The position numbers and the translations under genes were made by a program. From Ruminococcus sp. (GTDB lineage: Bacteria; Bacillota; Clostridia; Oscillospirales; Ruminococcaceae), in NCBI GenBank assembly GCA_016290875.1, contig JAEEVL010000001.1, positions 186,001 through 250,000 on the forward strand: a DNA stretch of 64,000 nucleotides, written 5' to 3'. The notes under the pieces are model-generated. The model ran no database searches. It saw only the letters and a program-made list of their open reading frames with translations, and was not told the origin of the DNA. This document shows, piece by piece, positions 1,094-3,041 of this stretch (the first letter of the stretch is position 1; each line of letters starts with the position of its first letter).

Positions 1094-2365
1094 ATGGCTG
1101 CACCATTAGCTGATAAGATACGCCCGAAAACTCTTGCCGATGTAGTCGGTCAGGAGCATATACTTGCCCTCGGAAAGCCGCTTCGTAAGATAATAGAGAG
1201 CGGTACTGTCCCTAATATGATTTTTTATGGACCGTCAGGCGTAGGTAAAACTACCGTTGCGCGTATTATTGCTGAGAACTGCGGAATGTTGTTATATAAG
1301 CTGAATGGTACGAATGCTTCTATATCCGATATTAAAGATGTAGTTGCTGATATAGGAACATTCGGCAGCGAAAATGGTATACTTCTCTATCTTGACGAGA
1401 TACAGTATCTCAATAAAAAACAGCAGCAGAGCCTTCTTGAGTACATCGAGAACGGTGATATTACTCTTATAGCTTCTACTACTGAGAATCCTTATTTTTC
1501 AGTTTATAATGCAGTAATAAGCCGAAGTACGGTTTTTGAGTTCAAACCTGTAAGTGCAGAGCAGCTCTTCCCTGCTATCAGAAGAGCCTTCAGACTTATT
1601 TCAGAAGAAAACGGCGTTGAAGTTATTGCGGATGACAATGTTATAAAAACGATAGCTTACAACTGCGGCGGAGATGTACGCAAAGCTATGAACACATCAG
1701 AACTGGCTGTGATATGCGGAGAAGCCGGCAGCGGTACAGTTACTATAACCGAAGATTCTCTTAAGCTGCTTGCACAGCGCAGCAATATGCGTTATGATCG
1801 TGACGGTGACCAGCATTATGATATACTGTCGGCACTGCAAAAGTCTATACGCGGCTCTGATGAAAATGCAGCTCTTCACTATGCGGCAAGACTTATTGAT
1901 GCTGGAGATATTATTTCTTTATCACGCCGCTTGCTTGTTATTGCAGCTGAGGATATAGGACTTGCCTATCCACAGGCTATCACTATAACTAAAGCTTGTG
2001 TTGACTCTGCTTTGCAGTTAGGTTTGCCGGAAGCGCGTATACCGCTTGCAGAGGCTATTATAATGCTTGCTACTGCTCCTAAGTCGAATAGTGCTGAATC
2101 GGCTATAGATGCAGCTCTTGCGGCGCTAAAAGACTGCGACGCGCTTGATTTTCCGAGACATTTACAGAACAAGCATTTTGATGGCAAGGGTGCTGATGTT
2201 GTTGGACAGCATTATAAGTATCCGCACGATTATCCAAATCATTATGTCAAGCAGCAGTATCTTCCTGAGACTATCAAGGATCACGTTTACTATAAGTACG
2301 GTGACAACAAGCAGGAGCAGGCTGCTCTGCAATACCGTAAGAAAATCCTTGAAGAAGCAAAGTGA
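1094..2365 (+). CDS. rarA: Replication-associated recombination protein RarA/MgsA (AAA+ ATPase)
   Basis: GPSGVGKTT Walker A, LYLDEIQYLNKKQQQ, clamp-loader-like C-terminus (YKYPHDYPNHYVKQQYLP). Confidence 0.93.
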   Translation: MAAPLADKIRPKTLADVVGQEHILALGKPLRKIIESGTVPNMIFYGPSGVGKTTVARIIAENCGMLLYKLNGTNASISDIKDVVADIGTFGSENGILLYLDEIQYLNKKQQQSLLEYIENGDITLIASTTENPYFSVYNAVISRSTVFEFKPVSAEQLFPAIRRAFRLISEENGVEVIADDNVIKTIAYNCGGDVRKAMNTSELAVICGEAGSGTVTITEDSLKLLAQRSNMRYDRDGDQHYDILSALQKSIRGSDENAALHYAARLIDAGDIISLSRRLLVIAAEDIGLAYPQAITITKACVDSALQLGLPEARIPLAEAIIMLATAPKSNSAESAIDAALAALKDCDALDFPRHLQNKHFDGKGADVVGQHYKYPHDYPNHYVKQQYLPETIKDHVYYKYGDNKQEQAALQYRKKILEEAK

Positions 2366-2389: not shown

Positions 2390-2420
2390 AAAATAAAAAG
2401 CCCCGAGAGACCTTCGGGGC
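2390..2420 (-). terminator. Intrinsic terminator of minus-strand ncRNA (possibly bidirectional with rarA)
   Basis: Minus strand GCCCCGAAGGTCTCTCGGGGC followed by TTTTTATTTTG. Confidence 0.8.
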
Positions 2421-3006
2421 TGTTATTATTCAATTGAGATTTTAAGCGACTTTCATCACTTAGCTAAATTTCCTGTGGGACTCACTCCTTTACTATTAAG
2501 GATTCTTATTATACCTGATAGTTGTCATAGTACCACATTCTTTCATAAGGATTCAATTGATTAACTTCTCATTGGACTCACCTTATTACTTAAATTTTCC
2601 GGTCATCCGGAATTAACGCCGGGCGTTGAATCAGCACTAATTTCTCATTGGACTCGTCCTTTACATTATATTTTCCGATCTATATTAAGACACATAGTCG
2701 AAATTTCAGAGTATACTGTATCCAATCGAAATAGCGTTGAAGCCGTTTCCATTCAGCAATGCGTCCGCCTGATAACTGAATTATTAACCTTTGAAACTTC
2801 AATCCGTGGAACAAGCCTGAAGCCTATATTCCCTCTTTCAAAAATTCAATTACTCAGCAAGCCCGCCGGCTTCACGCTGCTGTCCGGTCGTTTCTTCCAT
2901 TGGACTCACGCTCCCTTCCGCGTAGTATCATTTACATTGAGGTTAAACACCTCAGTCCAAGTAAATATCGCTTGGAGAACATTTCTATTGGTTCTTCCCT
3001 TTCTCT
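2390..3006 (-). ncRNA. Candidate large structured non-coding RNA (about 615 nt), family unknown
   Basis: No credible ORF; minus-strand promoter TTGACT-N17-TAATAT (extended TGG) at 3041..3013; intrinsic terminator at the other end; many hairpins; four copies of a GUAA...GAGUCC motif (around 2909, 2664, 2590, 2493). Confidence 0.75.
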
Positions 3007-3012
3007 GATTAT

Positions 3013-3041
3013 ATATTACCACATTTATTGGTGAAAGTCAA
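3013..3041 (-). promoter_or_regulatory. Sigma-A type promoter for the large ncRNA
   Basis: TTGACT (3041-3036), 17-nt spacer, TAATAT (3018-3013) with TGG extended -10. Confidence 0.75.

Follow-up and report, generated by a model that had tools for sequence, protein, structure and literature searches.

Locus and gene neighborhood

In the stretch of 64,000 nucleotides of a Ruminococcus sp. contig analyzed here (the window), the gap between rarA (1094-2365, plus strand) and a DUF1292 gene (PF06949; 3221-3523, plus strand) harbors a structured RNA locus on the minus strand (2390-3041). The first-pass annotation had described this gap as devoid of credible open reading frames (ORFs) and as bounded by a minus-strand promoter and a GC-rich intrinsic terminator, all of which was borne out: ORFs of at least 60 amino acids number zero, the promoter TTGACT-N17-TAATAT with a TG extending the -10 element lies at 3041-3013, and the terminator (2390-2421) consists of a stem (2421-2399) and a T run. 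The positions of both elements predict a transcript of about 615 nt (2392-3006). The promoter was matched in 96 of 99 related loci and the terminator is present in 87 of them, with stems that differ between relatives yet stay complementary (GCCCCG/CGGGGC, CCTCAG/CTGAGG). Judged from sequence only, covariation, an own promoter and an own terminator point to independent transcription. A cis-regulatory leader of the uORF attenuator type was rejected, since in the window the RNA terminator is followed by rarA in convergent orientation and no downstream gene lies on the same transcript. Upstream of rarA, a gene for a YhfC-type intramembrane metalloprotease occupies 425-1081.

Of 126 genomes of the genus Ruminococcus, 99 yielded the region with blastn and 100 with the covariance model R2, the latter including 66 of the 69 genomes of good quality; Ruminococcus flavefaciens strains YAD2003 and Y1 are among the carriers. 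The loci share a gene order of divergent DUF1292 gene, 6S RNA and nrdG/nrdD. In the window, the 6S RNA gene (RF00013; 3613-3797, plus strand) lies directly downstream of the DUF1292 gene as the conserved next neighbor. Next to the RNA terminator, rarA occurs in many loci but is missing there in others; the stable neighbor is the divergent DUF1292 gene and not rarA.

Relation to known RNA classes

The window and 17 related loci were searched against Rfam 15 with cmscan at the gathering threshold, and the RNA region was also searched at E-values up to 5. The 6S RNA is the sole curated match in the window, and the RNA region yielded nothing but chance matches, none of them credible, whether the threshold was curated or loose. 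This includes the models of OLE, ROOL, GOLLD and raiA, in agreement with the earlier statement that no match to OLE, ROOL or GOLLD was recognized; the likeness to OLE, ROOL and GOLLD which had been seen in size and complexity is backed by nothing that ties the RNA to them at the thresholds tried. An identity with 6S RNA was likewise rejected, as the RNA does not match RF00013 and the 6S RNA is a separate gene on the other strand. No prior description of such an RNA was found in Rfam or in the searched literature.

Folded structure and covariation

The folding z-score of the RNA region is only -2.5; covariation provides the real evidence for structure. In the core alignment (A1; 41 sequences, 30 pairs), 17 of the 30 pairs show two-sided changes, a number reached in none of 500 shuffles, and 96.9% of the alignment cells are paired. 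The covariation score amounts to 0.334; shuffles give 0.200, and sliding the structure along the alignment gives no more than 0.09. Within the core, all on the minus strand, a covarying long-range helix joins UGAAGCC (2868-2874) to GGCUUCA (2738-2744), helix 3 joins 2844-2853 to about 2781-2772 with two-sided changes in 8 of 10 pairs, and the core alignment further defines a hairpin GGGAAUAUAGGC...GCUUGUUCC (2808-2833). A segment that is highly conserved among relatives, GGAUACAG..UCUGAAAUUUCGAC..GUCUU, lies at 2688-2722.

Both ends of the RNA feature hairpins as well. The 5' hairpin AUUUAC-UUGGAC-UGAGG...CCUCA-AU-GUAAAU (2930-2966, minus strand; alignment A2) covaries and contains the hairpin UGAGGU-GUUUA-ACCUCA (2953-2937) that had been proposed at the outset, which is conserved. 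A conserved start-stop AUG UAA is located in its 3' arm; the pairing of the helix accounts for it, although it may also be translated. In the 3' hairpin AAGUGAU-GAAA-GUCGCUU (2444-2461, minus strand), 4 of 7 pairs change on both sides. Thus, with core, 5' hairpin and 3' hairpin covarying, the RNA is structured, as had been claimed initially. The remaining proposed hairpins fared differently: variable sequence surrounds UUCCGG-AUGA-CCGGAA and AACGC-CCG-GCGUU (2627-2597), the covarying long-range helix (2874-2868 with 2744-2738) is in competition with AAGCC-GGCG-GGCUU, and ACGC-GGAAGGGA-GCGU overlaps the Shine-Dalgarno sequence of ORF A.

Ribosome-binding sites and minigenes

The RNA carries a repeated motif, A-GG-N(4-9)-CC-R-AUG, which reads as an extended Shine-Dalgarno sequence followed by a minigene of usually 2-7 codons; the repeat GAGUCC-R-AUG is accordingly the end of a ribosome-binding site with a tiny ORF next to it. 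In the window, the minus strand holds, in 5' to 3' order, the 16-codon ORF A (MEETTGQQREAGGLAE-stop, 2850-2900) behind its extended site GGAAGGGAGCGUGAGUCCA (2901-2919), two M-R-X-stop minigenes, namely B1 (AUG AGA AAU UAG, 2637-2648; site AAAGGACGAGUCCA, 2649-2662) and B2 (AUG AGA AGU UAA, 2561-2572; site AAGGUGAGUCCA, 2573-2584), the 10-codon ORF D (MTTIRYNKNP-stop, 2496-2528; MKxRYxxKx-stop in relatives) and an AUG-less extended Shine-Dalgarno sequence AAAGGAGUGAGUCCCACAGG (2472-2491), of which similar copies occur in L226 and L220. Hence, the large structured noncoding RNA of the first-pass annotation is indeed large, structured, apparently independently transcribed and outside Rfam, but not simply noncoding, since ribosome-binding sites with tiny ORFs form an array on it.

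The 16S rRNA 3' tail (GGAUCACCUCCUUUCU) was read in relatives belonging to the family and the order; the own assembly gave no match. The reverse complement of the tail is AGAAAGGAGGUGAUCC, and repeats such as AAAGGUGAUCCC, AGGUGAGUCC and AAAGGAGUGAGUCC are predicted to pair with the tail, most with a bulge, so that the AUG is normally spaced. This pairing explains the motif better than a small GG..CC hairpin within it, which was rejected since the counts at the third pair are mostly U-U. For the ORF A site, predicted pairing reaches -22.5 kcal/mol in the window (median of relatives, -18.4 kcal/mol), compared with a median of -10.3 and a best value of -15.7 kcal/mol for 39 genes of the window. 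The AUG-less 3' element attains -14.8 kcal/mol, and the minigene sites, at -11.7 kcal/mol, exceed the sites of ordinary genes only modestly (P 0.003). Clearly exceptional pairing is limited to two sites, that of ORF A and the AUG-less one.

The frame test comprised 146 distinct sequences downstream of start codons other than that of ORF A, from 99 loci. An in-frame stop within seven codons occurs in 134 of them, whereas the other two frames reach 36 and 47. When counted past the fixed hexamer, 117 sequences have an in-frame stop vs. a shuffle mean of 53 (sd 5.8), and none of 2000 shuffles reached this number. As sequences within a genus are related, these counts are not independent events, and the argument is therefore carried by the variety of stop codons and positions, with TAA, TAG and TGA all in use and most ORFs having 2, 3, 4, 6 or 7 sense codons, and by the recurrence in other genera. 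With a Shine-Dalgarno sequence, a start codon, a handful of sense codons and an in-frame stop, these ORFs correspond to the definition of a minigene. The encoded peptides (MRN, MRS, ME, MY, MK) are too short and too variable to be the product. For ORF A, part of the conservation is structural because it overlaps core helices; its stop (TAA/TGA) was not counted as coding evidence, as helix covariation also explains it, and some relatives carry a frameshift (L008).

Several further explanations of the motif were rejected. It is essentially confined to the RNA locus in these genomes, and five other genomic matches examined as a possible trans regulon with a shared start-site motif look like chance and are unrelated to the locus. 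A rare-codon trap depleting a scarce tRNA is unsupported because AGA, at 17 per thousand, is a common codon here. Internal antisense pairing between the 5' hairpin loop UUGGACU and the repeat AGUCCAA was dismissed, since many relatives have UUGGUCU with the repeats unchanged.

Relatives outside Ruminococcus

Model R2 gave weak matches outside the genus, three of which (L165, L166, L167) adjoin a DUF1292 gene and show the same plan. When the regions upstream of DUF1292 genes were surveyed, such arrays turned up both in the same family, where three further genera have them (L226, L227, L229-L235), and in a second one (L220, L267, L281); most other DUF1292 regions of the order had no minigene array. 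In the 90 upstream regions, 21 strong-site minigenes were observed vs. 2.5 expected from shuffles. The plan begins with a strong site and an ORF A of 15-20 codons, after which minigenes follow; in L220, no ORF A with a strong site was seen. The minigenes include AUG UAC UAA, AUG AGA UAA, AUG ACU UGA and AUG AAA UAG as well as AUG UAC AGG UAA, AUG AUU UAA and AUG CAG UAA, and some loci have AUG-less motif copies. 6S RNA also lies near the RNA locus in L226, L220 and L166, so that this vicinity recurs in the second family (L220, L166).

Proposed function and comparison with known systems

A conserved structured RNA with a minigene array is real and, according to Rfam and the searched papers, an undescribed class. 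Sequence evolution shows that a folded domain, early in-frame stops and complementarity to the 16S tail have been kept and that the plan is found in other genera and a second family. The anatomy described above is very probably correct, and loading of ribosomes on the RNA is, a little less firmly, probable as well. We propose, as an evenly balanced judgment, that a folded 5' domain followed by a series of ribosome-loading sites on about 615 nt enables the RNA to recruit and hold ribosomes, plus initiator tRNA, by reiterative initiation. Ribosomes would be loaded at ORF A with its exceptional site, at the minigenes with their extended Shine-Dalgarno sequences, at the 10-codon ORF and at the AUG-less site, and would initiate, terminate and re-initiate without leaving the RNA, given that strong sites precede ORFs of very small size (mostly 2-10 codons). 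The product would be the act of translation rather than peptides, and the folded domain would set the timing of the holding. That ribosomes are captured and kept is suggested by peptides too short and variable to be the product and by published work, in which ORFs of 2-8 codons were translated reiteratively without ribosome release, an ORF of 7 codons going through about 71 rounds in vitro (PMC6495379), and re-initiation without dissociation was promoted when a minigene was preceded by a strong Shine-Dalgarno sequence (PMC8708949).

Such holding may serve sequestration in trans or protection and positioning on the folded RNA in cis, both being compatible with the sequence. Sequestration as the biological function is a tentative suggestion, and its global form presupposes an abundant transcript. 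Possible, though on the whole unlikely, is a translational counterpart of 6S RNA, i.e., an abundant mRNA mimic holding ribosomes on extended Shine-Dalgarno sites and minigenes; if true, the conserved cluster with 6S RNA would be one locus tuning both transcription and translation capacity. It is equally unlikely that the folded domain is the actual worker and that ribosomes are loaded by the minigenes and strong sites to shield a long RNA from nucleases or Rho. The strong covariation of the core would fit, as would the two-codon minigene of axe-txe, which acts in cis, possibly by shielding its mRNA from nuclease (PMC8708949), but other genera retain minigene arrays although the model no longer recognizes the core there, and L220 has a short RNA made up largely of motifs.

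More improbable is a small-peptide messenger with functional peptides from ORF A (15-20 amino acids) and ORF D (8-12 amino acids) and minigenes serving translational coupling. Although ORF A has a similar length and a mostly acidic start in several genera and ORF D keeps MKxRYxxKx with a somewhat higher rate of third-position change, ORF A overlaps conserved helices and is barely similar in sequence between genera, and the minigene peptides are too short and vary freely. Structure, size and some motif copies without AUG would suit an ordinary structured noncoding RNA of the OLE or ROOL kind, whose repeats bind a protein and whose AUG-to-stop spacing is coincidental; in view of the frame-specific enrichment of stops, recurring in other genera, and of a motif resembling the 16S-tail complement at normal start-codon spacing, this is very improbable.

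For the proposed ribosome holding by reiterative initiation, the nearest known counterparts are minigenes. Those of phage lambda bar are ORFs of a few codons behind a Shine-Dalgarno sequence, and their effect is attributed to the act of translation, not to the peptide. Like these and the axe-txe minigene (PMC8708949), where the effect is attributed likewise, the present ORFs have two or a few codons behind such a site, and the same origin of the effect is proposed. However, both are single elements inside other transcripts, whereas here a single structured RNA bears several of them, has a promoter and a terminator of its own and is conserved throughout the genus and beyond. The 7-codon microcin C precursor gene mccA shares the very short ORF and the strong Shine-Dalgarno sequence; its reiterative translation without ribosome release is described (PMC6495379), while that of this RNA is only proposed, and its peptide is modified by MccB, an enzyme without counterpart among the genes adjoining this RNA. 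OLE, ROOL, GOLLD and raiA are, like this RNA, large, structured and standalone, but their covariance models do not match it. They are not known as minigene arrays, and 6S RNA is not known for reading frames of its own. The latter is the immediate neighbor, and no sequence or structural relation to it was found; if sequestration is true, both would be mimics holding a core machine, i.e., RNA polymerase and the ribosome. That the RNA keeps its place next to 6S RNA suggests a connection with global growth control. So far, minigenes have been known as isolated curiosities, and an array of them on a standalone structured RNA, genus-wide and recognizable in a second family, would represent an RNA of a new kind. 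Moreover, a natural ribosome-sequestering or ribosome-parking RNA would become directly testable.

Locus variants and distant candidates

Some loci deviate in copy number. In L013 (G032), the 3' module is multi-copy with a period near 183 nt (RNA coordinates about 480-1400), and the RNA extends to about 1400 nt. Loci L153 and L155 have four tandem minigenes (MER, MR, MR, MGKN) at a spacing of about 52 nt, and one short contig (G142:C117) holds the RNA locus twice, both copies scoring equally (L128 and L129). A class-wide pattern search gave few single matches only (L297, L299), which are not established as relatives. The match L299 (G049:C49), from another family, has a promoter-like sequence after a probable rlmH gene, followed at once by GGGUGAGUCCG-AUG-UAC-UAA, and is a possible relative.
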